Of a stretch of DNA of 64,000 nucleotides, positions 12,232 to 61,643 are shown one piece after another. A program made the translations under genes and the position numbers. The DNA comes from Rugosimonospora africana (GTDB taxonomy: Bacteria; Actinomycetota; Actinomycetes; Mycobacteriales; Micromonosporaceae). Position 1 is the stretch's first letter. Each line of letters starts with the position of its first letter. The stretch is taken from contig NZ_BONZ01000045.1 of the NCBI RefSeq assembly GCF_016862975.1, positions 62,001-126,000 on the forward strand, given 5' to 3'. The notes under the pieces are model-generated. The model was not told where the DNA came from. It made no database searches and saw nothing but the letters and a program-made list of their open reading frames with translations.

Positions 12232-12253
12232 TTCCCTCCGCCGGCGGAGGGAA
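12232..12253. promoter_or_regulatory. 22-bp perfect palindrome upstream of GH30 gene
   Basis: The half-site TTCCCTCCGCC is followed directly by its exact complement, 55 bp before the GH30 start. It could be an operator or a leader-RNA hairpin. Confidence 0.5.
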
Positions 12254-12307
12254 GCAAATCAGGTGCACCCCGAACCTGCCTCCGTCCCCGCAGAAGGGCA
12301 CACCACC

Positions 12308-42480: not shown

Positions 42481-42627
42481 GGCGTCCCCCAGATTCGGAT
42501 GAAGGGTCGGAGGTAGCCGACCGCCACCCAGCATCGGACGGGCGACACCGCGCGAACAGAGCCACTATCCGTAGCACTTGTGAGGCGTAGTGGTCCGGTC
42601 TCGAGGCACCAAGACTCGACGAACGGC

Positions 42628-42645
42628 TGGGAGAGCGCTCTCCAA
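42628..42645. promoter_or_regulatory. LacI operator upstream of the beta-glucan regulator
   Basis: TGGGAGAGCGCTCTCCAA, an 18-bp near-perfect palindrome, ends 9 bp before the TATAAC box of the LacI gene. It fits autoregulation. The same motif recurs at 45935 and 49759. Confidence 0.8.
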
Positions 42646-42654
42646 TCTCTGTGC

Positions 42655-42670
42655 TATAACTGGCGTTGTG
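42655..42670 (+). promoter_or_regulatory. Leaderless promoter box of the LacI gene
   Basis: TATAAC at 42655-42660 is followed by 7 bp and the GTG at 42668, and fixes this start over the ORF start at 42590. Confidence 0.6.
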
Positions 42671-43711
42671 ACCGCGGATCCCCCGCCCCTGCAAGCCCGA
42701 ACCTTGGATCACGTAGCGCAGGTCGCTGGAGTGTCCCGGGCGACCGTGTCCAGGGTCATCAACCAGACCCGCAACGTGGATCCGGAGATCCAGCGGATCG
42801 TCAACGAGGCCATCGCCGCCACCGGATATGTGCCCAACCGGGCGGCCCGGTCGCTGGTCACCCGGCGCACCGGCCTGGTCGCCCTGGCCGTCTCGATGGA
42901 CGGGGCCTTCGAGGAGCCGTTCATGGGACAGGTCTTCGCGGATTCGTTCTTCGGCAGGGCGCTCAACGGCGTGATGCGGTTCCTGCGCTCGCACGACGGG
43001 CACCTCGTGCTCATGCTCGTGGACTCCGCCGAGACCCGCGGGCAGCTGATGGGCTACCTGCGTCAGGGTGAGATCGACGGTTGCCTGGTCATCTCCCTCA
43101 ACGCCCAGGACCCGTTGCCCGAAATGCTCGCCGACGCCGGCCTGCCCGCGGTGCTGTTCGCCCGGCCGTCGCGACCCATGCCGCTGAGCTACGTCGACGT
43201 CAACCACCACCTGGGCACGAAGCTGGCCGCCGACCGGCTGGTGGCCCACGGCTGCCGCCGGATCGCCACCATCGCCGGGCCACAGCAGGCGGTGGCCGGC
43301 CAGGATCGGCTCCAGGGAGTCAACGCGGCGATGGCCGTGCACGGCAACCCGTACCTGCCGTGGGAGGAGGGCGACTTCACGGTCGCGGGCGGCGCGGCGG
43401 CGATGGAGCGGCTGTTGGCCCGCAATCCCGATCTCGATGGACTGTTCGTCGCCAACGACCTGATGGCGCAGGGTGCGCTGGCCGTGCTGCACCAGCGGGG
43501 CCTGCGGATACCCGAGGACGTCGCGGTGGTCGGCTTCGACGACAGCGCGGCGGCACTGGCCTGCCGCCCCATGCTGACCACCGTGCGCCAGCCGGTGGAG
43601 GACATGGCCGCCGAGATGACCCAGATGCTGTTGCGCCGGATCGAGGAGCCGGGCCAGCGACCCACGTCGGTCATCTTCGAGCCAGTGCTGGTGGTCCGCG
43701 ATTCGGCCTGA
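42668..43711 (+). CDS. LacI-family regulator of the beta-glucan island
   Basis: 347 residues. The HTH is LDHVAQVAGVSRATVSRVIN with hinge PNRAARSLVTRR. The effector domain ends [20 protein letters not shown]. An operator of the TTGGAGAGCGCTCTCCAA type lies before this gene and before both reverse-strand glucanase genes downstream. It probably represses them until a beta-glucan oligosaccharide binds. The motif resembles, but is longer than, the TGGGAGCGCTCCCA box of CebR/CelR cellulose regulators. Confidence 0.9.
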   Translation: MTADPPPLQARTLDHVAQVAGVSRATVSRVINQTRNVDPEIQRIVNEAIAATGYVPNRAARSLVTRRTGLVALAVSMDGAFEEPFMGQVFADSFFGRALNGVMRFLRSHDGHLVLMLVDSAETRGQLMGYLRQGEIDGCLVISLNAQDPLPEMLADAGLPAVLFARPSRPMPLSYVDVNHHLGTKLAADRLVAHGCRRIATIAGPQQAVAGQDRLQGVNAAMAVHGNPYLPWEEGDFTVAGGAAAMERLLARNPDLDGLFVANDLMAQGALAVLHQRGLRIPEDVAVVGFDDSAAALACRPMLTTVRQPVEDMAAEMTQMLLRRIEEPGQRPTSVIFEPVLVVRDSA

Positions 43712-44412: not shown

Positions 44413-45828
44413 TCAGGGCAGGAGGTACTGGTCGTTGAGGACGGCGCCCTTCTCCGGGTGGTTCTGGTCGTAGCCGCGCGCGTCACACTGCAGGCCACCG
44501 TCGATGCAGTGGGTCACCAGGGCGGCCAGGGTGGGGTCGTCCCAGTCGTTGAAGAAGTCGTAGTGGAACGAGTAGCCGCGGCCACTGGAGAGCCGGACCT
44601 GCGACAGGTCCCCGCTGACCGGCAGCGCCATCTTGAACTCGATCATCGGGAGGGCGACCGGGTGGCCGATCGTGCACCGCCCGTCGACCGGGTACGCCAT
44701 GTGGCTCTTGTGGTCCGGGGTGTCCAGGTACTTGCCGTCCCAACAGCTGGGTGCCTGGAACCGGACGTTGAGTTGGGTACCGGCCGGGCACGAGGCCGGG
44801 AAGTCGGCGTTGTAGTAGCTGTCCCCGCACTCCCAGCCCTCGTACGATTCCTGGATGAACTGGGTGGCGTTGTTGCCCGGGCTGCCCACGAGGTACCGCA
44901 GACCTTTGGGGAACGGCCGGACGCTGGTGTAGTCGATCAGGTTGGTCTTGTAGTAGATGACCTGCGGCCCGATCGGCAGGATCGCGGTGTTGCCGTTGTA
45001 CATCGTGGGCATCCAGTAACCGGACTTGTCCCCCGGTGCCAGGCAGGTGGTGCCGCCGGCCTCGAAGCTGGCCACCGTGGTGCTGTTCGCGGTCGTCGCC
45101 TTGTTGCCCATGAAGGTGTGCATGTGCGAGGCGCCGGCCTGGCCCGGGAAGACGATCGGGTCGTCCGGGAGCGTGTGGTTGGCCGAGCAGTTGGCCTGGA
45201 ACTCGTGGAAGTAGGCGTTGGGCGGGGTGGCGTGCGACGGCGTCACCCCGGTCACCTGCGGATTGGCCAGGATGTAGCCGGGGCCGCCGGGTGCCGGGGC
45301 GCCGGGCTGCGAGCCGTACACCTGGAACTCGTACAGCGAGTAGCCGTAGCCGGTGCCGCGCTGGATTCCGTTCATCCGCACGTACCGGCCGGTGCCGGAG
45401 ACGTTGAGGTCCTGGGTGCCGCCGGTACCGGTGGTGGTGGAGTAGATCGTCGTCCAGGTGACCGCGTCGGCGGAGGTCTGGAGCTGGAATGCCTTCGCGT
45501 AGGCCGCCTCCCACTGCAGATGGACCCGGGTGATCGCGGAGGTGGCGCTGAGGTCGATCATGATCCACTCATGGTCGGTCGCGGCGCTGGCCCACCGGGT
45601 GGTGGAGTCGCTGTCGACCGCCGCGTTGCCCGGCGTGCCGCTGACCTGCGTCGAGGACACGGTGACGATCCGGTCCTGAGACAGCAGGGTGTCGGCCGCC
45701 TGGGCGGCGTGCTGGAAGCCCACGGTCAGGGCGGAGGTGAGGACCGCCGCGGCGCCGACGGCCAGCGCCGCACGCCTTCTGCGGTGCGCCCGGACGAGAG
45801 GGGGGATGGGCGGTGGGACGGAATTCAT
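44413..45828 (-). CDS. Secreted DUF1996 protein with N-terminal CBM32
   Basis: 471 residues from the ATG at 45828 with GAGGAGAA upstream. A signal peptide covers ~1-38. Residues ~40-175 are an F5/8-type C (CBM32) module (SSTQVSGTPGNAAVDSDSTT ... GYGYSLYEFQVYG). A DUF1996 domain follows, with FHEFQANCSANHTLPDDPIV, SHMHTFMGNK and HYDFFNDWDDPTL. DUF1996 is frequent in fungi and actinomycetes and is often attached to carbohydrate-binding modules; its activity is not established. His-rich motifs suggest metal binding. The operator at 45935-45952 places it in the glucan regulon. Confidence 0.88.
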   Translation of the reverse strand: MNSVPPPIPPLVRAHRRRRAALAVGAAAVLTSALTVGFQHAAQAADTLLSQDRIVTVSSTQVSGTPGNAAVDSDSTTRWASAATDHEWIMIDLSATSAITRVHLQWEAAYAKAFQLQTSADAVTWTTIYSTTTGTGGTQDLNVSGTGRYVRMNGIQRGTGYGYSLYEFQVYGSQPGAPAPGGPGYILANPQVTGVTPSHATPPNAYFHEFQANCSANHTLPDDPIVFPGQAGASHMHTFMGNKATTANSTTVASFEAGGTTCLAPGDKSGYWMPTMYNGNTAILPIGPQVIYYKTNLIDYTSVRPFPKGLRYLVGSPGNNATQFIQESYEGWECGDSYYNADFPASCPAGTQLNVRFQAPSCWDGKYLDTPDHKSHMAYPVDGRCTIGHPVALPMIEFKMALPVSGDLSQVRLSSGRGYSFHYDFFNDWDDPTLAALVTHCIDGGLQCDARGYDQNHPEKGAVLNDQYLLP

Positions 45829-45934
45829 GGATTCTCCTCGGGTGTGGGCCGCGACGCTCAGTCGGGCGGCGCGGCCGTCAGGAGGGAGCGGGGGCCAGAC
45901 GCCGGCGCCACCGTGCCCGTGGCCCGATCCGACG

Positions 45935-45952
45935 TTGGAGAGCGCTCTCCAA
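45935..45952. promoter_or_regulatory. LacI operator before the DUF1996 gene
   Basis: TTGGAGAGCGCTCTCCAA, a perfect 18-bp palindrome, 107 bp upstream of the DUF1996 ATG. Confidence 0.85.
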
Positions 45953-46120
45953 TGACCCTCAGTCTGCGGCGGCCGGTGCGTGGAAGTCAAGACATCCATC
46001 GATGTCCCGAAAGCTCTACCTGACCGTCGCGCCAGAGCCAGCCTGGGCGCGGGCCACCGCAGCGCGGCGACCCGCGCCCAGGCTCGTACCGGAACCGGAT
46101 CACCGATCCCTTGTGGACGG

Positions 46121-49100
46121 TCAGCTGTAGATGCCGAACTCGTAGAGCGAGTATCCGTAGGCGGTACCGCGGGCGGTTCCGTTCATCCGCACGTACCGGC
46201 CGGTACCGGTGAGGTTGATGTCGTCGACGCCGCCGTCCCCGGTGGTCGTGGAGTACACCGTCGTCCAGGTGTTGCCGTCGTTGGACGTCTGGATCTGGTA
46301 CGCCTTGGCGTAGGCGCTCTCCCACACCAGCTGGACGTGATGGATGGCGGTGGACTGGCCGAGGTCGACCCGGATCCACTGCGGGTCGCTCCAGTCGGTC
46401 GCCCACCGGGTGCTCAGGTTGCCGTCCACCGCGTTGCCCGGGTCGAACGTCGCCCCGTTGAGCGGCGCCTGGGTCGAGGACGCGGTCGCCGGCTTCCCCC
46501 GGCCGACGTTCGTCCCGCTGACCGGCGGCGGCACCACCGTGAACGACTTCGTCTCGATGCCCACGTTGCCGTGGCCGTCGTAGGCGTACACGTACACCTT
46601 CCAGACGCCCAGCGTCTGCGGCGCGGTGACCGAGAAGCTGGAGGTGCCGGTCTGGGTGAAGCTGGCGTAGTTGAGCCCGGTGCCACCGTCGATGTATTTG
46701 TGCGTGAGCATCAGGTTGTAGTGGATCGGGTCCCCGTTGGGATCCGAGACGTTGACGCTGACCGGGAAGGTCGAGCCGGCCGCCACGTTCTGCCCCGCGG
46801 TCATGCCGCTGATCACCGGCGGGGTGTTGGCGCCGGCGTTGCCGCCGAACATCTGCGCGACGGAGTAGTAGGCCAGGCGCCGCCAGCCACCGGTGAAGGT
46901 GTTGAGCCAGACGCCACCGAAGTCGTTCTCGATGCCGTAGTGGAACCAGGTGCCGCCCAGCGCGACGCCGGTGTGGCTCATCAGGCAGTTGTACGAACTG
47001 GTGTACCCGGCTGCCTTCTGCGGGTCGCTCGGCTCGGTGGGTACCCCGTTGGCGTCGTTGGGCACCTCCCACTCGCCCGACGGCCCGCCCTCGGTGAGGA
47101 TGTACGGCTTCGTGTACCCGCCGTTGATCCAGTCCTGCTTGACACCGCACACGGCACCGTAGGAGTTGACCGCGAGCAGATCCAGCGAGGGCGTGTACTG
47201 CTTGTAGTACGGCCACGCGCCGGTGTACGCGTCGGTCGACGTCACCGGGTGGTTGGGGTCGGCCGCGTGGACGGCCTGGACCACCTGCTCGACGTACCGC
47301 GCGTAGGCGATCCGCTCGGCCTCCACCTGGGCACCCGAGTAGTGGTCCTGGGTGGTGAGGATGACCTCGTTGCCCACGTCCCACATCAGCACGCCCGGGT
47401 GGTTCTTGTAGGTGTTCACCCAGGACACGATCGAGTTCAGCGTGCTGGTCTTGTAGGCGGTGTCGTTGACGTAGTCCGCGCCCTGGTTGAGCCAGAACCC
47501 GTTGACCACCTTGAGGCCGTAGGCCGCCGCGTTGTCCAGCAGCGGCTTGGACGTGGCGTCGGTGCCCCAGGTGCGCAGGGTGTTCACCCCCATCGCCTTG
47601 AGGCTGGCCAGGTAGGCACCGCTGGTCGCCGACGACGGGCCGAAGGTCAAACCCTTCACCTGGTACGGCGAGCCGTTCACGGTCAGCTTCCAGTTGCCCT
47701 GCGACCCGGTCACCTTCACGACGCTGCCGCCGCTGGGCACCGGCGGGGTGGTCAACGGTGGTGGTGCGGAGCCGGTCAGCTGCGAGACGTCCACCGAGTC
47801 GATGCTGAGCTGGCCGCCCGAACTCGGGCCGGCCGACGCGGAGGTGCAGCCGCACACCGTGTCCGGGAACGATCCGGCGACGCCCAGGCTGAACGTCAGG
47901 TAGAAGCCGTGGTCCACCGCCGCCTGCCAGGCGGCGACGCCGACCTGGCTCTCGCTGACGCTCCAGATCTGGTCGTTGTCCAGGTACCAGCGGATCTGCT
48001 CGTCGGAGGTGCTGCGGTCGATGATCTCGGCGTAGGTGTGGTAGCCGGTCTGGCAGGAGGGGCAGGTCAGCAGGCTGCTGGTCCGGCCGTTGTACTCCTG
48101 GCACGCACCGCCGGGCGCGACGTCACAGTGCAGGGTGGCCGCGGTCTGGCTGCGGCCGTTGACGTCCTCCATGATGTCGGTCTCGCCGGCCGCCGGCCAG
48201 CTCGCCGAGTTGCCGCGGATCGCCGCGCCGCTGGCGTAGAACTTCGGCCAGTACCCGATCCCGTTGGCCGGGTTGGGCTGCTTGAGCACGGCGGAGATCT
48301 TCAGCATGCCGCCCGCGGGCGGGGTGAAGTCGGAGCGCTGAGTCTCGATCTTCCCGGAGGTCCAGCCGCCGCCCGAGTTGACCGCGGTCAGGTTCAGGTG
48401 ACCGGCGCCGTCCAGGGCCACGTTGGTGGTCGAGTTGGTGGTGGTCTCCAGGCCGCCCGAGGTGGAGGCGCCGGTGTCGTACTTCCAGTTGGTGCCCGAC
48501 GGCGCGGTGCCGGCGTTGCCGGTGAAGCTGTCGCTCCACAGCGACGTCCAGTTGCCCGACCCGGTCGGGGACGTGGTCGGCGTGGGGCTCGGAGTCGGCG
48601 AGGAACCACCACCGCCGGTGTGCACCACGAACTCCCACAGCGAGTACCCGTACCCGCCGACCCGCACGGTGCCGTACATCCGCACGTACCGGCCGCTGCC
48701 GGAGACGTTGAGGGTCTGCGTGCCGCCGGTACCGGTGGTGGTCGAGTAGACAGGCGTCCAGTTCACCGCGTCCGGCGACACCTGGATCTGGAAACCTGTG
48801 GCGTAGGCCGCCTCCCAGGTCAGCACGACCTGGCAGATGGACTGGGTGGTGCCCAGGTCGACCTGGATCCACTGGGGATCGGAGAACTGGCTCGCCCACC
48901 GGGTTCCGGGGTTGCCGTCGAACGCCGCCGAGGCCGGGTTGGCGCCCGCGTTCTCGGTGGATGAGGCGCTCGCCGGACGGTTGAGGGCGGCGTTGTCCGT
49001 GCCGCAGGTCGGGACGCCACCTCCGGTGTCGGAGGAACCGTAGACCTGGAACTCGTACAGCGAGTACCCGTAGCCGCCGTTGCGCGCGGTGCCGTACATC

Positions 49101-49555
49101 CGCACGTAGCGACCGGTACCGGTGACGTTGAGCGTCTGCGTGCCGCCGGTACCGGTGGTGGTCGAGTAGATCGAGGTCCACGCGCTGCCGTCGGGCGAGG
49201 TCTGGATCTGGAACGCCGTGGCGTAGGCGGCCTCCCACTGCAGCACGACCTGGGTGATGCTCGCCGAGGCGCCGAGGTCGACCTGGAGCCACTGCGGGTC
49301 GGAGAACTGCGACGACCAGCGGGTGCCCGGGTTGCCGTCGACGGCCGCGGACGCCGGGGTGTCGGCCCCCTCGGTCGAGGAGGCGGTGACCGGCCGGCCC
49401 TGCGAGAGCAGGGTGGACGCCGCGTTCGCTCCGGTGGCCAGCGCCACGGCGAACGTCGCGACGATCGCCCCGATCCCGACGGCGGCCAGCAGGCGCCGGC
49501 GCCGGAAGGCGGGTGACATTCGAGGTTTCCAGCTGCTCGGCGGCAGGCGTCTCAT
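46121..49555 (-). CDS. Secreted two-enzyme glucanase: CBM32-CBM32-GH16-GH5/GH2-like-CBM32
   Basis: 1144 residues from the ATG at 49555 with AAGGAGAG upstream. Signal peptide ~1-46. Two CBM32 modules (~47-175, ~187-312), a Pro/Thr/Ser linker, then a GH16 domain (~335-595) with the catalytic GETDIMED (Glu458, Glu463). A second TIM-barrel domain (~612-930) has LRTWGTD, acid/base Glu730 in WDVGNEV and nucleophile Glu822 in LTEGGPSGEWE, resembling GH2-barrel/GH5/GH72-type glucanosyl enzymes. An Ig-like domain (~940-1030) and a third CBM32 end the protein. GH16 would cut beta-1,3(-1,4)-glucan. Operator at 49759-49776. Confidence 0.88.
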   Translation of the reverse strand: MRRLPPSSWKPRMSPAFRRRRLLAAVGIGAIVATFAVALATGANAASTLLSQGRPVTASSTEGADTPASAAVDGNPGTRWSSQFSDPQWLQVDLGASASITQVVLQWEAAYATAFQIQTSPDGSAWTSIYSTTTGTGGTQTLNVTGTGRYVRMYGTARNGGYGYSLYEFQVYGSSDTGGGVPTCGTDNAALNRPASASSTENAGANPASAAFDGNPGTRWASQFSDPQWIQVDLGTTQSICQVVLTWEAAYATGFQIQVSPDAVNWTPVYSTTTGTGGTQTLNVSGSGRYVRMYGTVRVGGYGYSLWEFVVHTGGGGSSPTPSPTPTTSPTGSGNWTSLWSDSFTGNAGTAPSGTNWKYDTGASTSGGLETTTNSTTNVALDGAGHLNLTAVNSGGGWTSGKIETQRSDFTPPAGGMLKISAVLKQPNPANGIGYWPKFYASGAAIRGNSASWPAAGETDIMEDVNGRSQTAATLHCDVAPGGACQEYNGRTSSLLTCPSCQTGYHTYAEIIDRSTSDEQIRWYLDNDQIWSVSESQVGVAAWQAAVDHGFYLTFSLGVAGSFPDTVCGCTSASAGPSSGGQLSIDSVDVSQLTGSAPPPLTTPPVPSGGSVVKVTGSQGNWKLTVNGSPYQVKGLTFGPSSATSGAYLASLKAMGVNTLRTWGTDATSKPLLDNAAAYGLKVVNGFWLNQGADYVNDTAYKTSTLNSIVSWVNTYKNHPGVLMWDVGNEVILTTQDHYSGAQVEAERIAYARYVEQVVQAVHAADPNHPVTSTDAYTGAWPYYKQYTPSLDLLAVNSYGAVCGVKQDWINGGYTKPYILTEGGPSGEWEVPNDANGVPTEPSDPQKAAGYTSSYNCLMSHTGVALGGTWFHYGIENDFGGVWLNTFTGGWRRLAYYSVAQMFGGNAGANTPPVISGMTAGQNVAAGSTFPVSVNVSDPNGDPIHYNLMLTHKYIDGGTGLNYASFTQTGTSSFSVTAPQTLGVWKVYVYAYDGHGNVGIETKSFTVVPPPVSGTNVGRGKPATASSTQAPLNGATFDPGNAVDGNLSTRWATDWSDPQWIRVDLGQSTAIHHVQLVWESAYAKAYQIQTSNDGNTWTTVYSTTTGDGGVDDINLTGTGRYVRMNGTARGTAYGYSLYEFGIYS

Positions 49556-49758: not shown

Positions 49759-49776
49759 TGGGAGAGCGCTCTCCAA
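49759..49776. promoter_or_regulatory. LacI operator before the GH16 glucanase gene
   Basis: TGGGAGAGCGCTCTCCAA, identical to the copy before the LacI gene, 204 bp upstream of the GH16 ATG. Confidence 0.85.
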
Positions 49777-49939: not shown

Positions 49940-50043
49940 GATCGTCGGACCTCCATGTAAGCGGAACACCGTCCCGCCCCAGTGCCCCGCCCCTGCCTGC
50001 GGTGACACCGGAGCATTCCGAATGCGTCGAGAGGAAGCCTTTG

Positions 50044-52707
50044 ATGCACGTCCCCGCAGAATCATGGGGCCGCCGCCGCGGCAGAATCTACGCGGCGATA
50101 GCCGCCGTCCTGCTCGCCCTGGTGGGCGGGTACGCGGCGACCACCGCCCTGCCGGCGAGCGCGGCCTCCAGCCTGCTCTCCCAGGGCAAGCCGGCCACCG
50201 CGTCCTCGGTCGAGAACGCCGGTACGCCGGCGTCCGCCGCGGTCGACGGCAACCTCACCGGCACCCGGTGGTCCAGCCAGTTCTCCGATCCACAGTGGAT
50301 CCAGGTCGACCTGGGCCAGGTCGCCGCGCTGACTCAGATCACCGTGGTCTGGGAGAGCGCCTACGCGACCGCGTTCCAGCTCCAGTCGTCCAACGACGGC
50401 ACCACGTGGACCACGCTGCAGAGCGTGACCAACGGTACCGGCGGCACGCAGACCTACAACGTCAGCGGCAGCGGCCGGTACGTGCGGCTGTACGGCACCG
50501 CCCGGGCCACCGGCTACGGATACTCGCTGTACGAGTTCCAGGTCTACGGCTCGACCGGCACCACCTCGCCCACGCCGAGCTCGACCGCGTGCGACACCGC
50601 CACCAACGCCGCGCTCAACAAGCCCGCGACAGCCTCCAGCACCGAGAACGGCGGCACCCCCGCCTCCTCCGCGGTGGACGGCAGCGGCACCACCCGCTGG
50701 TCCAGCGCGGCCAGCGATCCACAGTGGCTCACCGTCGACCTGGGCAGCGCGCAACCCATCTGCCAGGTGCAGATCAACTGGGAGACCGCGTACGGCAAGG
50801 CGTTCCAGATCCAGGTGTCCAACGACAACGCGACGTGGACCGTCCTTTCGTCGATAACCAACGGGACGGGTGGCAACCAGGTCATCAACGTCAGCGGCAG
50901 CGGGCGCTACGTGCGGGTGTACGGCACCGCGCGAGGCACCGGGTACGGGTACTCCATCTGGGAGTTCATCGTGCACCTCGGCGGCACCGCGACCAGCCCG
51001 AGCCCCACCCCCAGCACCAGCCCGACGCCGAGCCCGACGGGCACCACCGGCCCGATCCAGGGCGGAGGCTCGCTGGGCCCGAACGTGATCGTCTTCGACC
51101 CCTCGATGTCGAGCACGAGCATCCAGTCCCGGCTGGATTCGGTCTTCGCCCAGCAGGAGACCGCCCAGTTCGGCACCGGCCGGTACGAGCTGCTGTTCAA
51201 GCCCGGCTCGTACAGCGGCCTCAACGCCCAGATCGGCTTCTACACCTCGATCGCGGGTCTCGGCCAGAACCCCGACGACGTCGCCCTGCACGGTGACATC
51301 ACGGTCGACGCGGGCTGGAACGCCGGCAACGCCACGCTCAACTTCTGGCGCTCGGCGGAGAACATGTCCCTCTACCCGGTCTCCGGGACCGACCGGTGGG
51401 CGGTCGCGCAGGCGGCGCCGTTCCGGCGGATGGACGTGCACGGTGGCATGACCCTGGCCTCGCCGAACTGCGGCTGGGCCTCCGGCGGTTACATCGCCGA
51501 CAGCCGGGTCAGCGGCACCATCGGCCCGTGCTCGCAGCAGCAGTGGTACACCCGCAACAGCACCATCGGCGGCTGGAACGGCGCGGTGTGGAACATGGTG
51601 TTCTCCGGCGTGCAGGGCGCTCCCGCGCAGAGCTTCCCGAACCCGCCCTACACGGTGCTTCCGACCACCCCGGTGACGGAGGAGAAGCCCTACCTCTACA
51701 CCGACACCTCGGGCGCCTACCGGGTGTTCGTACCGTCGCTGCAGAACAACAGCTCGGGCGCCACCTGGCTCAACGGCAACACCCCGGGTACCTCCATCCC
51801 ACTCACCTCGTTCTACGTCGCGCAGCCGGGCGTCTCCGTGGCGACCCTCAACGCGGCCCTGGCCCAGGGCCTGAACCTGCTGTTCACCCCGGGCATCTAC
51901 CACATCAACGCACCCATCAACGTCACCCGCGCGGACACCGTGGTCATGGGTCTCGGCTACGCGACCCTCGAAGCCGACAACGGCGTGACCCCGCTGAACA
52001 TCGCGGACGTCAACGGCGTCAAGGTGTCCAGCCTGCTCATCGACGCCGGCACCACCAACTCGGCGTCACTGATGCAGGTCGGTCCGGCCGGCTCCTCGGC
52101 CAGCCACGCAAGCGACCCGAGCCTGGTCCAGGACGTGTTCTTCCGGATCGGTGGCGCCGGACCCGCCGCGGCGAGCGCCGCACTCGTGGTCAACAGCAGC
52201 AACACGATCATCGACCACATCTGGGCCTGGCGCGCCGACCACGGCGCCGGCGCGGGCTGGACCACCAACCCGGCCAACAACGGCCTGATCGTCAACGGCG
52301 CCAACGTGTCGGCCTACGGGCTGTTCGTCGAGCACTTCCAGCAGTACAACGTGGTCTGGAACGGCAACGGCGGCAAGACGATCTTCTTCCAGAACGAACT
52401 GCCGTACGACCCGCCGAGCGCGGCCGCGTGGTCGCACGACGGGATGACCGGCTGGGCGGCGTACAAGGTGGCCAACACGGTCACCACGCACGAGGCGTGG
52501 GGCCTGGGCAGCTACTGTGTCTTCACCACGGATTCGAGCATCGCCGCGTACCACTCGTTCGAGGTGCCCAACACCGCGGGCGTGAAGTTCCACGACGTGC
52601 TCACCGTCTCGCTCGGCAAAGGCTCTATCACCCACGTCATCAACGACACGGGCGACGCGGCGCTGCCGTCCTCGGTGGTACCGCACAACGTGGTCAGCTT
52701 CCCCTAG
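50044..52707 (+). CDS. Secreted GH55-like beta-1,3-glucanase with two CBM32 modules
   Basis: 887 residues from the ATG at 50044 (AGGAAG 7 nt upstream); a GTG at 50002 is less likely. Signal peptide ~1-40. Two CBM32 modules (~41-180, ~190-325) and a Pro/Ser/Thr linker precede a ~540-residue double beta-helix. The conserved run (GRYELLFKPGSYSGLNAQIGF, FWRSAENMSLYPV, GGYIADSRVSG, QQQWYTRNSTIGGW, TIIDHIWAWRADHG) matches actinomycete GH55 exo-beta-1,3-glucanases as I know them. GH87 was the alternative. It would release glucose or short oligomers from laminarin or fungal wall glucan. Confidence 0.87.
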   Translation: MHVPAESWGRRRGRIYAAIAAVLLALVGGYAATTALPASAASSLLSQGKPATASSVENAGTPASAAVDGNLTGTRWSSQFSDPQWIQVDLGQVAALTQITVVWESAYATAFQLQSSNDGTTWTTLQSVTNGTGGTQTYNVSGSGRYVRLYGTARATGYGYSLYEFQVYGSTGTTSPTPSSTACDTATNAALNKPATASSTENGGTPASSAVDGSGTTRWSSAASDPQWLTVDLGSAQPICQVQINWETAYGKAFQIQVSNDNATWTVLSSITNGTGGNQVINVSGSGRYVRVYGTARGTGYGYSIWEFIVHLGGTATSPSPTPSTSPTPSPTGTTGPIQGGGSLGPNVIVFDPSMSSTSIQSRLDSVFAQQETAQFGTGRYELLFKPGSYSGLNAQIGFYTSIAGLGQNPDDVALHGDITVDAGWNAGNATLNFWRSAENMSLYPVSGTDRWAVAQAAPFRRMDVHGGMTLASPNCGWASGGYIADSRVSGTIGPCSQQQWYTRNSTIGGWNGAVWNMVFSGVQGAPAQSFPNPPYTVLPTTPVTEEKPYLYTDTSGAYRVFVPSLQNNSSGATWLNGNTPGTSIPLTSFYVAQPGVSVATLNAALAQGLNLLFTPGIYHINAPINVTRADTVVMGLGYATLEADNGVTPLNIADVNGVKVSSLLIDAGTTNSASLMQVGPAGSSASHASDPSLVQDVFFRIGGAGPAAASAALVVNSSNTIIDHIWAWRADHGAGAGWTTNPANNGLIVNGANVSAYGLFVEHFQQYNVVWNGNGGKTIFFQNELPYDPPSAAAWSHDGMTGWAAYKVANTVTTHEAWGLGSYCVFTTDSSIAAYHSFEVPNTAGVKFHDVLTVSLGKGSITHVINDTGDAALPSSVVPHNVVSFP

Positions 52708-52721
52708 AGCACGGCACGGTA

Positions 52722-52763
52722 GGCGCCCCGCGTCCGGAACCTCGGTTCCGGGCGCGGGGCGCC
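52722..52763. terminator. Bidirectional terminator hairpin
   Basis: GGCGCCCCGCG at 52722-52732 pairs with CGCGGGGCGCC at 52753-52763, with inner CCGGAAC/GGTTCCGG pairing, between the convergent GH55 and GH1 genes. Confidence 0.75.
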
Positions 52764-52777
52764 GTGTCGCGGGTGGC

Positions 52778-54190
52778 TCAGCCCTGCTGGATCCGGCGGA
52801 TCGTGTCGCGGTACCAGTAGGCGCTGCGCTTGGGGATGCGCCGCTGGGTCGCGTAGTCCACCCGGACGATGCCGAACCGCTTGTCGTACCCGTACGCCCA
52901 CTCGAAGTTGTCCAGCAACGACCAGACGAAATAGCCGCGGACGTCGGCACCCGCCTGGCGCGCCTGCGCGACCGCGGCGATGTGCGAGGCCAGGTATTCG
53001 GTGCGGTCCTCGTCGTCCACGTGACCGTCGGCGTCCGGCTTGTCCTCGAAGGCCGCGCCGTTCTCGGTGACGACGATCGGCAGCCCAGGATAATCCCGAC
53101 CGATGCGCACCAGCAGGTTCCGGAAGTCGTCCGCCATGATTTCCCAGCCGGTCGCGGTGCGCGGCAGGCCGTAGGGCAGGCCGCGCCCGACCGGGATCCC
53201 GTCCGCGTCGTGAGTCGAACCGTCCTCGGCACTGCCCGACGCGCGCTGGCTGAAGTAGTAGTTCACGCCGAGGCTGTCCAGCGGCGCGTTGATGACCTCG
53301 AGGTCACCGTCCCGTACCGGCAGCGCCACCCCGCGCCGCGCCAGGTCGGCGATCACGTCTCGCGGGTACCGGCCGTGCACCAGCGGGTCCAGGTAGAGGC
53401 GCAGTCCCAGACCGTCCGCGCGGCGGGCGGCCTCGTGGTCCTCCGGCGCGTCGGTGGCCGGGTTGGCGGTGCCCAGGTTGAGCGTGATGGCAAGCTCCAG
53501 CGGCCCGGTCGCCGAGTCCCGCAGCCGCCGCGCGGCCAACCCGTGCCCGAGCAGCAGATGGTGTACCGCGTGGATGCCGGCGGTGAAGTCGCGCCGCCCC
53601 GGCGCCTGCACGCCCTCCACGTATCCCAGCATCGCCGAGCACCACGGCTCGTTGAGCGTGGTCCAGTGGACCACCCGGTCGCCCAGCCGGTCGTAGACGA
53701 GCTGCGCGTAGTCGGCGAACCGGTGGGCGGTGTCGCGCACCGGCCAGCCGCCCGCGTCCTCCAGCTCCTGCGGGAGGTCCCAGTGATACAGCGTGAGCCA
53801 CGGCGTGACGCCCTGCGCCAGCAGTTCGTCGACCAGCCGCTCGTAGAAGGCGATGCCGGCCGGGTTGACCGGTCCGCGCCCGTGCGGCTGCACCCGCGGC
53901 CAGGCCACCGAGAAGCGGTACGTGTCGATGCCCAGCTCGCGGATGAGCGCCACATCCCCGGGCATCCGGTGGTAGTGGTCGCAGGCGGTGTCGCCCACGT
54001 CGCCGTTGTCGATCGCACCGGGTACCTGGCAGAAGGTGTCCCAGATGGACGGTGTTCGGCCGTCCTCGGCGACGGCTCCTTCGATCTGGTACGCCGACGT
54101 CGCCGTACCCCAAAGGAACGTGGCCGGCAGGCGGTTGATGGTTTCGTCATGACGGCTGACGGCCGCGCTGGCCCCCGGATTGGTGATCAC
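52778..54190 (-). CDS. bglB: Beta-glucosidase, GH1 family
   Basis: 470 residues from a GTG with AGGAGAG upstream; no signal peptide. GH1 motifs are FLWGTATSAYQIEGA, acid/base Glu in TTLNEPW, nucleophile Glu in IVVTENGAAF, and the aglycone/glycone end VWSLLDNFEWAYGY. It cleaves beta-glucosides in the cytosol. It lies 73 bp after the ABC ATPase and ends the reverse-strand operon, so it acts on the imported oligosaccharide. Confidence 0.95.
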   Translation of the reverse strand: MITNPGASAAVSRHDETINRLPATFLWGTATSAYQIEGAVAEDGRTPSIWDTFCQVPGAIDNGDVGDTACDHYHRMPGDVALIRELGIDTYRFSVAWPRVQPHGRGPVNPAGIAFYERLVDELLAQGVTPWLTLYHWDLPQELEDAGGWPVRDTAHRFADYAQLVYDRLGDRVVHWTTLNEPWCSAMLGYVEGVQAPGRRDFTAGIHAVHHLLLGHGLAARRLRDSATGPLELAITLNLGTANPATDAPEDHEAARRADGLGLRLYLDPLVHGRYPRDVIADLARRGVALPVRDGDLEVINAPLDSLGVNYYFSQRASGSAEDGSTHDADGIPVGRGLPYGLPRTATGWEIMADDFRNLLVRIGRDYPGLPIVVTENGAAFEDKPDADGHVDDEDRTEYLASHIAAVAQARQAGADVRGYFVWSLLDNFEWAYGYDKRFGIVRVDYATQRRIPKRSAYWYRDTIRRIQQG

Positions 54191-54263: not shown

Positions 54264-55316
54264 TCAGTCGATGGCGCCACCGGCCGGGTGCAGCCAGCAC
54301 GCGACCGTTCGCGCCTCGCGAACCCTGTCCGCTGGAGAACCGAGCACCGGTATGTCGACCGCGCACGGATCGAATCGCCGGGGGCAGCGGGGATGGAACG
54401 AGCACCCGGACGGCATCGCCTGCAGGTCGGGTGGGGATCCGGGGATCCCGGCCAGCTCGCGGCGCGGCCCGCGCAGGGCCGGGAACGAGTGCAGCAGGCC
54501 GTGGCTGTAGGGATGCAGGGCGTCTCGGTAGAGCAGGGCGGCCGGTGCCTCCTCGACGATCCGGCCGCCGTACATGATGGCGATCCGGTCCGAGAACTCG
54601 ACCAGCAGCGACAGGTCATGGGTGATGAACAGCACCGAGAAGCCGAACCGCTCGCGCAGCTCGACGATCTGGCGCAGGATCTGCCGCTGCATCACCACGT
54701 CCAAGGCCGTGGTGGGCTCGTCCATGATGACGATCTTCGGCTCCAGAGCCAGCGCCATACCGATCATGACCCGCTGGCGCATGCCACCGGAGAGCTGATG
54801 CGGGTACGCGTGGAGCCGGTCCGGCGCGATACCGACCATCGTGAGTAGTTCCCGGGCCCGGTCCAGCATCGCCCGCCGGCTCATCCCCGGCGAGTGCGCG
54901 GCGATGACGTCGATCAGTTGAGTGGACACCTTGTGCACCGGGTTCAGCGAGTTCATCGCTCCCTGGAACACGATCGAGGTCTCGGCCCAGCGGAACGCCC
55001 GCAGCGCCAGCGGGGCGAGGGTGAGCACGTCGACCGGCTCGCCGTCCGGCGGGCTGTAGATGACCTCGCCGGCGCTGATGACTCCCGGCGGCGGCAGGAG
55101 CCGGGCCAGCCCGTAGGCCAGCGTCGACTTGCCGCTGCCGCTCTCCCCCGCCAGGCCCAGCACCTCGCCGCGGCGCAGCGTCAGGCTCACGTCGCGCACG
55201 GCCCGCACGGCGTTGTCGTCGACACCGTAGTCGACGCACAGCCCGCGGATGTCCAGCACGGCGTCGGCGGCGATGGATCGGGACGGCTTCATCGTCAGGG
55301 GTTTGCTCATGCTCAT
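54264..55316 (-). CDS. Opp/Dpp-type ABC ATPase (DppD-like)
   Basis: 350 residues. Walker [11 protein letters not shown]-loop VFQGAMNSLNPV, signature LSGGMRQRV, Walker B IVIMDEPTTALD. The C-terminal oligopeptide-transport extension has SGCSFHPRCPRRFDPC with paired cysteines. The ATG overlaps the permease stop. With the GH1 partner the cargo is more likely a beta-gluco-oligosaccharide than a peptide, as is known for some Opp-family sugar importers. Confidence 0.92.
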   Translation of the reverse strand: MSMSKPLTMKPSRSIAADAVLDIRGLCVDYGVDDNAVRAVRDVSLTLRRGEVLGLAGESGSGKSTLAYGLARLLPPPGVISAGEVIYSPPDGEPVDVLTLAPLALRAFRWAETSIVFQGAMNSLNPVHKVSTQLIDVIAAHSPGMSRRAMLDRARELLTMVGIAPDRLHAYPHQLSGGMRQRVMIGMALALEPKIVIMDEPTTALDVVMQRQILRQIVELRERFGFSVLFITHDLSLLVEFSDRIAIMYGGRIVEEAPAALLYRDALHPYSHGLLHSFPALRGPRRELAGIPGSPPDLQAMPSGCSFHPRCPRRFDPCAVDIPVLGSPADRVREARTVACWLHPAGGAID

Positions 55317-56329
55317 CGTTCGTTGTCCTCACCGCGTGGGGGTGCCTGTACGACCGGGGTGAAACCCACCCGCATCCGGACCCGGCGACCGTCGGCGGCC
55401 CGGAACGACCGCCGGGCGTTGCTGCGCAGCCGAGGGTTGACGAACTCGTCGATGCCGAAGTTCACCAGCGACAGCGCGGTGCCGAACAGCGCGATGCACA
55501 GGCCGGCCGGGACGAACCACCACCAGGCACCCTGCGGCAGCGCCTGCTGGCCCTGCGCCCAGAACAGGATCTCGCCCCAGTTCCACTCGGAGATGCCGGA
55601 GACGCCGACGAACGCCAGCGCGATCTCGGTGGCCACCGCGAACATGACCGTGCCGATGAACGACGAGGCGATGATGGCGGTCAGGTTGGGCAGGATCTCG
55701 AAGCCGATGAGGCGCCAGGTCGACTCGCCGGTCGCCCGGGCGGCCTCGACGAAGTCGCGCCGGCGCAGCGACAGGGTCTGCGCGCGCAGCAGCCGGGCGC
55801 CCCACGCCCAGGAGGTGCACCCGATCACCAGGGCGATCGTCCAGTCGCCCGAGTTGGGCACCACGTTGGTGATGATGATGATCAGCGGCAGGGCCGGGAT
55901 GACGATGAACACGTTGGAGATCGCGGACAGGCTCTCGGCCGCGGCTCCCGACAGGTACCCCGACGTCACGCCGATGACCACACCGACCACGGTGGCGACC
56001 GCCCCGGCGGCCAGGCCGACGAACATCACGCTGCGGGTACCGACGATCACCTGGCTGAAGATGTCCTGGCCGATGTGTGTGGTGCCGAACCAGTGCTTCC
56101 ACCCCGGTCCCTGAAGGATGTCGCTACTGCGCTTGCTCGGGTCGTACGGCGCGATGGTGTCGCCGAGGACGGCCACCACCGCGAAGATGAGCAGGATGAC
56201 CAGTCCGGTGGTCACCTTGCCGTTGACCAGGAACCGGCGTAGGCCGCGACCGCGCCGGGGCGCGCCACCGGTACCGGTCAGGTCGGGTGGCGGCGTCGCG
56301 GTGGTCAGTCCGGTGGCTGCGGCGGTCAT
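55313..56329 (-). CDS. Opp/Dpp-type permease (DppC-like)
   Basis: 338 residues with about six membrane segments. The DppC pattern is visible as VLGDTIAPYDPSKRS, FGTTHIGQDIFSQVIVGTR and the EAA loop RDFVEAARATGESTWRLIGFEI. The ATG is 3 bp after the preceding permease stop. Confidence 0.92.
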   Translation of the reverse strand: MTAAATGLTTATPPPDLTGTGGAPRRGRGLRRFLVNGKVTTGLVILLIFAVVAVLGDTIAPYDPSKRSSDILQGPGWKHWFGTTHIGQDIFSQVIVGTRSVMFVGLAAGAVATVVGVVIGVTSGYLSGAAAESLSAISNVFIVIPALPLIIIITNVVPNSGDWTIALVIGCTSWAWGARLLRAQTLSLRRRDFVEAARATGESTWRLIGFEILPNLTAIIASSFIGTVMFAVATEIALAFVGVSGISEWNWGEILFWAQGQQALPQGAWWWFVPAGLCIALFGTALSLVNFGIDEFVNPRLRSNARRSFRAADGRRVRMRVGFTPVVQAPPRGEDNER

Positions 56330-56332
56330 CGC

Positions 56333-57313
56333 TCAGCCCTCCTTGCGGGTACGAGGATCGAGCGCCAGGTAGGCGATGTCGGCCAGGAAGTTCGCGGCGA
56401 GCACGGCGAGCGTCACCACCAGGAAGATGCCCTGGATCAGCGGGTAGTCATGCCGGGCGATGGCCTGCAGCATCTGCAGCCCGATACCGGGGTAGGAGAA
56501 CACGTACTCGACCAGAAAGGTGCCGCCGACGACCAGCCCGAGCGCCATGCCGAAGCCGGAAACGCTGGGCAGCAGTGCGTTGCGGGCGGCATAGCCCATC
56601 ACCACGCGCCGCTCGGACAGCCCCTTGGCGTGCGCCACGGTGACGTAGTCCTCGGCGGTGACGGTCACCATCATGTTGCGCATGGACAGCAGCCAGCCGC
56701 CGACCGAGGCGACGACGATGGTGATGGCGGGAAGCAGCCCGTGCTCGATGGCGTTGCCGATGAACTCCAGGTTCCAGCTGGGTACCAGTCCCGGGTCGTA
56801 CCCGCCGGAGATCGGCAGGAAGTAGCCGGCGTACGTGACGACGCTGACCGCGATCAGGCCGAGCCAGAAGTACGGGATCGACGACAGGAACGTGGTGACC
56901 GGCAGCAGGCCGTCCAGCCAGGAGCCGCGCCGCCAGCCGACGACGATTCCGAGCAGGGTGCCGATCGCGAAGCTGATGATGGTGGTGACGCCGATCAGCA
57001 GCAGCGTCCAGGGCAGTGCCGAGGCGAGCACCGAGGTGACCGGCAGCGGGAAGTTGCCGAACGAGATGCCCAGGTCGCCGTGGCTGAGCTGTTCGAGGTA
57101 GTCGACGTACTGCATCCACACGCTCTCGTGCTTGTCGAGTCCAAACAGGACGGTCAGCGACTGGATCTGGTCGCTGGTGATCTGCCCGCGCATCCCGGCG
57201 ACGAGTGCCGAGACCGGGTCGCCGGGGATCAGCCGGGGGATGAAGAAGTTGATGGTGATCGCGGCCCACGCGGTGAACACGTAGAACGCGAAGCGGCGCA
57301 GGAAGAATCTCAT
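56333..57313 (-). CDS. Opp/Dpp-type permease (DppB-like)
   Basis: 326 residues from the ATG at 57313, which overlaps the ATPase stop. DppB features: start [35 protein letters not shown], the [20 protein letters not shown] loop and an end DPRTRKE. Confidence 0.92.
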
Positions 57314-58404
57314 GCCGCGACCCCCTCGAACAGCCAGCAGGCGGCCCAGTGCTCGCCGGTGTCGCCCACCTGAAGGCGCGGCGGCAGTTCCGTGCGGCAC
57401 TTGTCCATCACGAACGGGCAGCGCGGGTGGAACCGGCAGCCGGCCGGCGGCGAGATCAGGCTCGGCGGTTCGCCGCCCGGGACGGGCGCGCCGGCCCCGC
57501 CGACACCGCCAGCCGTGCCGGCCTCGCCGGCCCCGCCGGCCTCGCCGAGCGAACCGGCCTCGCTGGTGAGGCGGTCCGGATCGGGAGCGGACTCGACGAG
57601 CAGCCGCGTGTACGGGTGCGCCGGCCGCTGGGTCACCGTCTCGCTGTCGCCGCCCTCGACCATCCGGCCGGCGTACATCACCAGGACCGTGTCCGCGAAG
57701 TAGCGCGCCGAGGCGATGTCATGGGTGATGTAGAGGATGGCGAGGTTCAGCCGCTCCTTGAGGTCACGCAGCAGATTGAGCACGCCGAGCCGGATCGAGA
57801 CGTCCAGCATCGACACCGGCTCGTCGGCCAGCAGCGCCTCGGGATCGGCCGCCAGGGCGCGGGCGATGGCCACCCGCTGGCGTTGACCGCCGGACAGCTC
57901 ATGCGGGTACTTGCTGAGGTAGCGGTCGGCGGGCGTGAGCTGCACCCGGTCGAGCAGGTTCGCCAGCGCCGCACGCAGCTGCTCCTTCCCCTGGCCCGCG
58001 CGGCCGTGGATGCGCAGCGCCCGGGTCAGGTGGTATTCGACGTTGTGCACCGGATTCAGCGAGGCGAACGGGTCCTGGAAAATCAGCTGTACCCGGCGGC
58101 AGTACGCCCGGAACCGCCGGCCTCCCCGGGCGGTGGCCAGCGGAGTGGGCTCCCCGTGCAGCCGAATGTCTCCGGAGGTGCGGGGATAGAGTTGGGCGAG
58201 CAGGCGGGCGACCGTCGACTTTCCCGAGCCGGACTCCCCCACCAGGCTGGTGACCTGGCCACGGAGCAGTCGCAGGTCCACGTCGTCGACCGCGTGGACG
58301 ACCCGGACCTCCCTGCTCAGGGCCGCCCGCCCGCGCTTGCGCACGGGAAAGTGCTTGGTGAGACCTTCAGCCTCAAGGACTACTTCGGCGGCGGGGGTCG
58401 TCAT
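57310..58404 (-). CDS. Opp/Dpp-type ABC ATPase (DppF-like)
   Basis: 364 residues from the ATG at 58404 (AAGGAG 11 nt upstream). Walker [11 protein letters not shown]-loop [12 protein letters not shown], signature LSGGQRQRV, Walker [14 protein letters not shown] Gly/Ala-rich insert ([20 protein letters not shown]) precedes the Cys-containing tail [12 protein letters not shown]. First of the four membrane-complex genes. Confidence 0.92.
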
Positions 58405-58446
58405 GGACGGGACACTCCTTGCGATCCGAGAGCGGGGATTGCGACG

Positions 58447-58489
58447 GTGCGTGCCGGACAGTCCTCGGGGATCTCGGTCCGGCACGCAC
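58447..58489 (-). terminator. Hairpin between binding-protein and transporter genes
   Basis: GTGCGTGCCGGAC (58447-58459) pairs perfectly with 58477-58489. It lies between the binding-protein stop and the first ATPase start, and may be a partial terminator or RNA-stabilising element that lets the binding protein be made in excess. Confidence 0.6.
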
Positions 58490-58501
58490 TGTCGCGAGGC
58501 G

Positions 58502-60163
58502 TCAGGAGGCAGGCGTCAGGTGCAGGACGACGTCGAGCATGCCCGGACGGGTCGGCTGGTTGGCTTCGTACGGGTTGCTCTCGTCCGGCCACCCGGTCCA
58601 CTTCGCGGTCGAGTACTCGGCACCGAGGTTGCCGGCCGAGGTCGGGATCATCGGCATCTGCTCGACCATGATCTGCTCGATCTTCTCCAGCGCGGCCTGC
58701 CGCCCGGCGTCGTCCGTGGCGGCCGTGTACGCCTTGAGCGCCGCGGTGGCGTCCGGACTGTTGAAGCGGCCGTAGTTGCCGGAGGCGGTGGTGCCGATCG
58801 GCTGCAGCTGCGCGCTGTCCATGATGTTCTGGTACATGTCGTAAGGGGTCGCCCCGCCGTTGGTCCAGTGCATCACGGCGTCGAAGTTGCCCTTGCCGAC
58901 GGCGTCGAACCACGCGTCCTGGTTCGCTTTGTCGATGCTGGCGGTGATGCCGATGGTGGCCAGGTTGTCCTTGATGATGGTCAGATCGGTCTGGTAGTCG
59001 TTCCAGTCCGCCGGGTCGCTCAGCGTCAAGGTGACCGCCTTGCCGGTCGGGTCCTTCAGCGTGTTGCCGGCGTAGGTGAAGCCGTTGTCGGTCAGCTCCT
59101 TCTTGGCCGTGGCGACGTCGGCCTGCGAGGACTTGCCCTTGTACTGTGCCGCGATGAACGGGTCACCCGCGGGGGTTGGGATACCTGTGATGTTGTCGAT
59201 CTTCGGCTTGAAGTAGCCGGCCTCGCCCTCGTTGAAGATGTCGTCCCGGTTGACCACCATGCTCATCGCCCGGCGCAGGTGCGGGTTGTCGAACGGCTTC
59301 TTGGTGGTGTTGAACCACAGGCCGTCGGCGCTGAGCGCCGGCGGGAACCACAGCTTGAAGTGCGCCGGGTCGCGGGCCACGAAGGTGGACTTCGCGTTGG
59401 CCAGGAATTCGTAGCTCCAGTCGGTCGCGCCGCTGGTCAGCGCGGGAAGCTGAGTGTCGTTGCCGCTGTAGGTGGTGCAACGGATCTCGCCGACCTTCGG
59501 CGGCTTCTGCCAGTAGTCGCTGCGCACGTCCAGCGTGACTGTCGACGGCGTGACGGACTTGATCTTGTACGGGCCGGTACCGATCGGGTTGGCGACCGTG
59601 TCCTTCGACGGGTCCGCCATCGCCGACCACTGCTTCTTGTTGACGACCTGAGTCGAGAGGATCTTCGTTCGGTTCACGTACTGCGACCCGTCGAAGTTCA
59701 CCGTCACGGTGCTGCCGCTGCTGGACACATCCTTGATGGGCAGCGCGTAGTAGTTGACTCCCTTGTTGTCCTTCATGATCTGGAAGGAGTAGGCCACGTC
59801 GTCGGCGGTCATCGCGGATCCATCGGACCACTTGACGTTGTCCCGGATAGTCAGCGTCAGGGTGCTGTACCCGTTGGACCAGTCCCACTTGGTGGCAAGC
59901 CACGGCTTCGGGTCGGCGGTCGGCTTGGCCTCGTTCTGCAGGGCCAGCGGCTCCCAGATCAGCCAGGTGTATCCCAGGTGCTTGGCGAACGAGGCGTCCA
60001 GGTACGGGTTGTTGTTGGCCGGCAGCGTCGCGCCGTCGGGCATACCGATGTTCAGCACGCCGGAAGACTTGGTGGTGGCAGCGCTCTTGCCGCCGCACGC
60101 GGCCAACCCGGTCATCGCCAGGCTGCCCGCGAGCAACGCGGTCAACGTACGGTTAACGCGCAT
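58502..60163 (-). CDS. Opp/Dpp-type solute-binding lipoprotein (family 5)
   Basis: 553 residues from ATG with GAGGA upstream. Lipobox LAAC with Cys at ~23. The family-5 fold shows [61 protein letters not shown] and [17 protein letters not shown]. It binds the oligosaccharide (or peptide) outside the membrane and hands it to the DppBC channel. Confidence 0.93.
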
Positions 60164-61269: not shown

Positions 61270-61643
61270 GACCAGCCACCTCTCGTGTTGGGGTCGCAAA
61301 CGCAGCCGGATCCAGGGCGCCTTCGTCAAACCGGTACCGGTTCCGGTACCGGTTGCGGAACCGGTACCGTGAAGTGAACCGCGTCGATGTGAACTCGGTC
61401 AATGACGAAGAGATAACGATCGGGTACCGCGCGAACACCGCTCGGGCCGCGCCTGGACGATCACACCCTCGGCGGTTTCCGCACCGGCGCGCTGAGCGGC
61501 GCTGTACTCCCGCGCTGGCACCGGGCGTACCGGAGCAGGCCGGCACGCCCGGTGGGCGGTCACAGGGATAGACGCGCTCGGCGTCGGGTACGGGCGTCAA
61601 CCCGCGAGAATCGGGCGACCGGGTAATCGCACCGGCCTCATGC
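61270..61643. other. Intergenic region upstream of the lacI/transporter operon
   Basis: Besides the operator cluster at 61329-61370 no convincing gene is seen. Frames here are short and lack start sites. Confidence 0.5.
61329..61370. promoter_or_regulatory. Cluster of CCGGTACCGG palindromes
   Basis: AACCGGTACCGGTT at 61329-61342, TTCCGGTACCGGTT at 61341-61354 and AACCGGTACCGT at 61359-61370, plus CCGGTT/AACCGG arms at 61349-61364. They lie 60-101 bp before the LacI ATG. Confidence 0.65.

Follow-up and report, generated by a model that had tools for sequence, protein, structure and literature searches.

Comparison with described systems

The closest described counterpart of the protein studied here comes from Planotetraspora, in which dbCAN3 assigned the labels CBM32|GH158|GH16 to one protein per genome in four of five genomes (PMC11431748, Table 2). 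The characterised Bacteroides GH158 enzymes are reported to be endo-beta-1,3-glucanases, and the beta(1,3)-glucan utilisation locus of B. uniformis carries GH16_3 and GH158 endo-glucanases together (PMC7157763). GH16 folds with lost activity have also been described, among insect beta-glucan recognition proteins and in Rv0315 (PMC6403176, PMC6827312, PMC4606783). In this work, a stretch of 64,000 nucleotides of the soil actinobacterium Rugosimonospora africana (GCF_016862975.1, contig NZ_BONZ01000045.1, positions 62,001 to 126,000; the whole stretch is called the window) was analysed, with the focus on a gene at 46121-49555 that joins a GH16 and a GH158 domain on one chain. Neither the insect proteins nor Rv0315 are known as fusions to an active glucanase. 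We hypothesize, with a probability of roughly 60%, that the GH158 domain does the cutting and that the GH16 half is here weak or inactive and has shifted towards glucan binding.

The architecture itself is already known and in print for Planotetraspora. That protein resembles the window's in bearing the same three family labels, whereas the published entry is an annotation count, so that the comparison is one of family labels only (PMC11431748). The structurally solved enzymes BuGH158 (6pal) and GH158(Pro) (9oro, 9p25, 9p26, 9p2f) share with the window the barrel followed by an immunoglobulin-like (Ig-like) domain and the Asn/Glu/Glu set, with TM-scores of 0.72-0.83. However, the identity in the fold alignment is 22-27%, and their chains, at about 400 residues, leave no room for GH16 or CBM32 modules. 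In B. uniformis the two glucanases are separate genes served by SusC/D-type uptake, whereas the window has a single chain with CBM32-type modules, an ATP-binding cassette (ABC) importer and a LacI-type regulator. Among the open-licence matches listed, no title announced a study dedicated to the GH16 clade or the operator described below, which is not proof of absence. The object is real and mostly ordinary, and what seems new is the state of its GH16 half.

Organisation of the fused gene

The open frame starts with ATG at 49555 and stops at 46121 on the minus strand, which bears out the coordinates of the initial annotation. Its parts are as follows.

46121..49555, minus strand: whole gene, CBM32-CBM32-GH16-GH158-Ig-CBM32, 1144 amino acids (open frame, Pfam and PDB sequence matches)
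49421..49555, minus strand: putative signal sequence, residues 1-45, RRRRLL followed by a hydrophobic stretch (by eye; Sec or Tat)
49034..49420, minus strand: F5/8-type-C (CBM32-type) module 1, residues 46-174 (PF00754; boundaries by eye)
48614..48997, minus strand: F5/8-type-C (CBM32-type) module 2, residues 187-314 (PF00754; boundaries by eye)
47783..48556, minus strand: GH16 domain, residues 334-591 (PDB 7eo3 1.6e-60, 3dgt 1.3e-58)
48452..48454, minus strand: Gly368, adjoining the site of the missing 8-residue WGTGE stretch (alignment)
48167..48184, minus strand: GH16 catalytic strand E458-T-D460-I-M-E463, nucleophile, helper Asp and acid/base (aligned with PDB GH16 enzymes)
46841..47710, minus strand: GH158 TIM barrel, residues 616-905 (PDB 9oro 7.5e-33, 6pal 5e-22; AlphaFold; Foldseek)
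47366..47371, minus strand: GH158 Asn729-Glu730, predicted general acid/base (aligned with 6pal)
47090..47092, minus strand: GH158 Glu822, predicted nucleophile (aligned with 6pal)
46532..46828, minus strand: Ig-like domain after the barrel, residues 910-1008 (the 6pal match extends into it; strands in the model)
46124..46513, minus strand: F5/8-type-C (CBM32-type) module 3, residues 1015-1144 (PF22633/PF00754; boundaries by eye)

The protein is probably secreted, to judge by the look of its N-terminus. The initial annotation, made from the sequence alone, had read this gene as a secreted chain with two different glucanase domains and CBM32 modules at both ends, and this outline stands. Pfam finds three F5/8-type-C stretches (PF00754, 1.7e-77 over the whole protein), two N-terminal and one C-terminal. 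The strand that the annotation had picked out as ETDIME (E458-E463) aligns with the catalytic ExDxxE strand of 7eo3 and 3dgt, solved endo-1,3-beta-glucanases whose match to the domain is of laminarinase type. The Pfam GH16 model gave no match to the window protein at 1e-3, despite these decisive PDB sequence matches.

State of the GH16 half

The fused genes were compared in 64 aligned rows, namely the window and 63 loci, holding 62 distinct GH16 sequences since the pairs L008/L065 and L012/L073 are identical. The window's own copy among the loci (L006) was left out of the residue counts, and some genomes may occur twice among the rows. One row (L086) was counted as fused although its GH16 and GH158 are encoded in two frames that overlap, and in another (L088) the last module is in a different frame. 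Unfused GH16 domains served as controls, 40 being examined out of 41 matches in 61 genomes after a contig-edge fragment (G081, C66) was left out.

The nucleophile Glu and the helper Asp are present in 64/64 fused GH16 domains. The acid/base Glu is kept in only 21 of them, the others having Thr (32), Ser (8), Ala (2) or Val (1), and it is kept in 40/40 controls. One control from the R. africana genome (L124) has lost the nucleophile and the Asp, with its acid/base Glu retained. Another GH16 paralogue of this genome (L142:6974-7972, contig C34) reads GQINILE, with Gln for the nucleophile and Asn for the Asp, and is likely, from its sequence, to be another dead GH16.

The window's GH16 domain keeps all three residues, and eight other residues, including the WGTGE motif of its nearest relatives, are deleted. 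The other 63 fused rows carry WGTGE (46), WGTGS (12), FGTGE (3) or WGTAE (2) at this place, and the 40 controls have WGTGE in 34 and something different in six. An outright gap occurs in the window only, among all 64 fused and 40 unfused rows. Departures were also counted at 70 columns, namely those at which the 40 unfused rows and, the window aside, the 20 fused rows that bear the acid are conserved. The window departs at 11 of the 70, the 20 other acid-bearing fused rows at 0-2 each and the 43 rows without the acid at 4-8. Either the acid or the loop is lost in 44/44 rows made up of the window and its sister clade (see below) against 0/20 other acid-bearing fused rows.

The lost loop may be one that touches the substrate. 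In published GH16 structures, an N-terminal loop is reported to bind sugar through Asn33, Gly37 and Asn38 in ULam111 (PMC5595797), and through Tyr52 and Asn53 at subsites -3 to -1 in SCLam (PMC7961093). By analogy, we infer that these loops correspond to the one deleted in the window.

Lineage of the fused genes

Barrels at 58-75% identity to the window's are encoded in 55 loci and in 19 other genomes, so the observation is not a matter of chance. A GH16 match accompanies the barrel in 47/55 loci, from Streptomycetaceae, Micromonosporaceae, Catenulisporaceae and Chloroflexota, and the eight loci without one belong to Kribbella (five), Pseudonocardiaceae (two) and Streptomyces (one). Trees of both halves were built as quick searches, with support from the Shimodaira-Hasegawa-like approximate likelihood ratio test (SH-aLRT) and no bootstrap. 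The GH158 tree separates the 64 fused rows from 11 rows without GH16 (SH-aLRT 100). The 43 rows without the general acid form one clade, with a support of 99 on the GH16 tree, which was built without the motif columns, and 99 on the GH158 tree. This points to one loss of the general acid, not many. The clade comprises 25 Micromonosporaceae, two Chloroflexota metagenome-assembled genomes and 16 rows from further members of the window's family; the window branches as sister to the clade on the GH158 tree (support 97). One genome of this family has a barrel with 100% identity to the one of Hamadaea tsunoensis, the basis for assigning it to the Micromonosporaceae.

After the loss, the GH16 domains of the clade do not look abandoned. 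The median ratio of GH16 to GH158 divergence is 1.02 for pairs within the clade and 1.38 for acid-bearing pairs, while the pairs that include the window give 1.47 and 1.41. Eight columns differ sharply between the acid-less and the acid-bearing rows, seven being fixed in 41-43 of the 43 and the eighth in 39; at position 507 (window numbering) Thr has become Glu in 43/43. The window shares one of these eight changes. The ratio and the fixed columns, both read from sequence, argue for continued use of the acid-less GH16 rather than decay, most simply in binding. Glu507 was considered as a replacement acid, but in lichenase complexes its strand is not known to lie in the cleft, so its appearance is left unexplained. 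The best identities and the GH16 tree hinted that the window gene had been acquired horizontally from Streptomycetaceae; this is not claimed, since the GH158 tree puts the window beside the Micromonosporaceae clade.

Identity of the barrel

Sequence and predicted fold identify the barrel as an established module, GH158. In a PDB sequence search (phmmer) its best matches are GH158(Pro) 9oro (7.5e-33) and BuGH158 6pal (5e-22), with GH2-type enzymes far behind. An AlphaFold model made from 39 aligned sequences, the window's own included, had a mean confidence (pLDDT) of 89.7, and the top six Foldseek matches in the PDB were GH158 chains without exception, with GH2 and GH157 enzymes next in rank. 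The model and these matches show the clan GH-A barrel with a following Ig-like domain that is characteristic of GH158. N136, E137 and E220 are reported as essential in BuGH158 (PMC7157763), and they line up with N729, E730 and E822 of the window (GNE and TEWGP of 6pal). This Asn/Glu/Glu set is invariant in 75/75 aligned rows, window included, and the barrel is predicted to be an intact-looking endo-beta-1,3-glucanase domain.

On their own, Pfam and NCBIfam give only weak GH2-type matches to the barrel. The Pfam match is to the GH2 TIM-barrel model PF02836 (31.3 bits against a cut-off of 21, 1.5e-7) and covers part of the barrel. Membership of GH2 was rejected, as Pfam reports no GH2 sandwich domain for the window protein and GH158 fits better by sequence and fold. 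The weakness of the Pfam match explains why the initial annotation could not place the barrel and saw no clear fit to GH2, GH5 or GH72. It was right that the barrel belongs to none of these three and about a retaining type with two catalytic glutamates (its NE and TEGG), which are E730 and E822; the difficulty of placement disappears, as the PDB search and Foldseek are clear. The barrel is a standard module, the outcome that the annotation had itself named as refuting its picture. An unusual glycosidase or transglycosylase outside the known families, for which the bare Pfam result could be cited, is refuted in its family part by phmmer and Foldseek, and the Ig-like domain stands after the barrel as it is reported to do in BuGH158 (PMC7157763); we give this idea almost no credence.

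Proposed function and alternatives

The three CBM32-type modules would hold the enzyme on its substrate, and the intact GH158 domain, a retaining enzyme with E730 as acid/base and E822 as nucleophile, would be the main cutter of beta-1,3-glucan, a polymer found for instance in fungal walls. The GH16 half would ancestrally have been a second endo-beta-1,3-glucanase. It would then have been altered by lineage, the window losing the WGTGE loop stretch and the sister clade the general acid. In the window it would most likely be weak or inactive and mainly grip the glucan chain beside GH158. GH55, the ABC importer and the GH1 beta-glucosidase would take over the products, with a LacI-type repressor in control.

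There are published parallels for such a change of role. The E269S mutant of ZgLamA is inactive and nevertheless binds laminarin, with a dissociation constant (Kd) of 1.78 uM (PMC4606783). An inactivated GH16 enzyme, LamA E175Q, is employed as a probe that captures beta-1,3-glucan, E175 being the nucleophile by the order of the authors' labels (PMC13301891). GH16 proteins of insects that lack the catalytic residues are regarded as glucan binders (PMC6403176). One or both catalytic residues are reported to be lost in 0.7% of GH16_3, about 9% of GH16_4 and 1% of other GH16 sequences (PMC6827312); given the low figures for GH16_3 and for sequences outside both subfamilies, a bacterial clade with a fixed loss of the acid is unusual.

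Several observations weigh against the proposed function of the GH16 half. The window's domain keeps its Glu-Asp-Glu set and may still cut glucan. The unfused controls vary as well, with 0-33 departures at the 70 columns and the six deviating WGTGE motifs, four of which (L103, L122, L124, L125) have a shorter loop with GTGE or GSGE kept; a departure is therefore by itself no sign of inactivity. The suggested role of the loop is drawn by analogy from structures of other GH16 enzymes. On the GH16 tree the position of the window is not settled: its closest rows by path are acid-bearing Streptomycetaceae, and it sits on a long branch (0.42, the median being 0.087). Among the acid-less rows, divergence is no faster in the GH16 half than in GH158. 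Finally, Rv0315 is reported to have its glutamates and neither to cut nor to bind laminarin, its inactivity arising through the failure to bind (PMC4606783); a damaged GH16 domain therefore need not bind.

Two other explanations have to be weighed against these data. Both halves could be active, GH16 and GH158 working on different stretches or branch patterns, as though the separate GH16_3 and GH158 enzymes of B. uniformis had been joined into one protein. E458, D460 and E463 of the window would agree with this, as would the intact look of the 20 other acid-bearing fused GH16 domains with their 0-2 departures, and the two enzymes that B. uniformis encodes are reported to yield identical hydrolysis products (PMC7157763). 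The window's own loop deletion and its 11 departures of 70 stand against it, as does the loss of the acid/base across the whole sister clade, and we consider it rather unlikely. New chemistry, in which the GH16 half uses its nucleophile in the absence of the usual general acid, either to transfer glucan or to act on an uncommon substrate, would account for the nucleophile and Asp kept in 43/43 rows, the newly fixed columns including Glu507, and the unaccelerated divergence of GH16. However, the Glu and Asp may persist through hydrogen bonds to the sugar, the single clade amounts to one event, and the window retains E463 and has just one of the eight changes, so this explanation appears very improbable.

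The loss of activity in favour of binding thus remains the preferred reading for the window. For the Micromonosporaceae branch of GH16-GH158 proteins, we tentatively suggest that one acid loss, with the nucleophile retained in 43/43 and new residues fixed, produced a repurposed partner that grips or transfers glucan and feeds the active GH158, the window being a sister branch on a separate route of loop loss. The initial interpretation accordingly holds for the two glucanase domains, the three CBM32-type modules and the retaining barrel. It fails for the unplaceable barrel, and nothing was found in support of the trimming or transglycosylation of products that it had proposed. Its picture of two working enzymes is doubtful because the GH16 domain lacks the conserved loop here and the general acid in the 43-row sister clade. 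An annotation of two glucanases may hide a disabled partner, as 43/64 fused GH16 domains are without the general acid. The system also offers a clean test of a glucanase turned into a binding module in cis, and a barrel that had been left open is now in a known family.

LacI-type operators

Three exact copies of the palindrome GGAGAGCGCTCTCC occur in the 11.1 Mb draft genome, all of them in the window locus.

49760..49775, palindrome, no strand: LacI-type palindrome upstream of the GH16-GH158 gene, exact GGAGAGCGCTCTCC
45936..45951, palindrome, no strand: LacI-type palindrome upstream of the DUF1996 gene, if its start is the ATG at 45828, exact GGAGAGCGCTCTCC
42629..42644, palindrome, no strand: LacI-type palindrome at the 5' end of the LacI reading frame, exact GGAGAGCGCTCTCC

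Since the core GAGAGCGCTCTC was picked with the locus already in view, its counts in other loci are an independent test but the one in the window is not. The core of GGAGAGCGCTCTCC was found 97 times in the 1.04 Mb of the 55 loci (47/55 loci), against 0.12 expected, and each of 59 palindromes of the same letters at most 4 times. Elsewhere in the genome there are 13 sites with one mismatch to GGAGAGCGCTCTCC. Two of these precede GH16 genes of the organism itself, two more sit at a different LacI gene, and a sugar-type binding protein and a CBM11/GH3 protein have one each nearby; the other seven had no clear link in the frames scanned. These sites make it likely that a LacI-type regulon, for which we infer a ligand, is shared with relatives. 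The palindrome GGGAGCGCTCCC, which we take to be the CebR box, was not enriched in the window at up to two mismatches (7 found, 11 expected), nor was the shorter GAGCGCTC (5 found, 2.9 expected). Promoter and terminator scans were not above chance (1 against 0.4 expected and 3 against 2.7).

Surrounding glucan locus

The following genes adjoin the fused gene.

42590..43711, plus strand: LacI-family regulator (PF00356/PF13377)
44413..45999, minus strand: CBM32-type module and DUF1996 protein (PF09362 2.9e-46)
50002..52707, plus strand: two CBM32-type modules and GH55 (4pew 2.2e-229)
52778..54190, minus strand: GH1 beta-glucosidase (PF00232; TIGR03356 over cut-off)
54264..60163, minus strand: Opp-type ABC importer, two ATPases, two permeases and an SBP_bac_5 binding protein (Pfam)

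The true start of the LacI gene probably lies downstream of the palindrome. The GH55 match 4pew is SacteLam55A, an exo-beta-1,3-glucosidase (PMC10637969). In the fetched flanks of the 55 relatives' loci, the neighbours found were LacI (46), DUF1996 (34), GH55 (4), GH1 (3) and the binding protein (1). Farther off lie a GH30 gene with a ricin-type lectin domain (12038-14167, plus strand) and a GH3 gene (36582-38810, plus strand); together with GH55, GH1 and GH16-GH158, this pair looks like part of a wider glucan-degradation region. A near-perfect 20-nt inverted repeat at 52722-52763, between the convergent GH55 and GH1 genes, is a possible two-way terminator. A second LacI-family regulator (60271-61329, minus strand) adjoins the importer genes.

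The DUF1996 protein

This domain of unknown function is a multi-copy family, often with a CBM32-type module, and lies near GH158 in 34/55 loci. It is present in 19/20 genomes with a strong GH158 match against 26/81 without one (Fisher p 2e-7, n=101, relatedness ignored). GH158 matches occurred in 27 genomes, seven of which were weak (2.9e-7 to 4.5e-4), taken unchecked as other barrels and counted as lacking. The work thus ties DUF1996 to beta-1,3-glucan loci, and a new glucan-active or glucan-binding protein is possible. Fungal members are reported to be vacuolar and to affect stress responses (PMC4738358). A sequence search against the PDB gave no match at E up to 1, and structure prediction gave no usable model (pLDDT 46.8). 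Five frames near the second DUF1996 gene of the R. africana genome had no Pfam match at 1e-5, which is weak evidence because the GH16 and GH55 of the window escape Pfam too. Eight His residues are invariant among 28 aligned DUF1996 copies, which suggests a metal site.

Elsewhere in the window, a caspase-like domain is joined to RCC1 repeats in one gene (20767-22560, minus strand).

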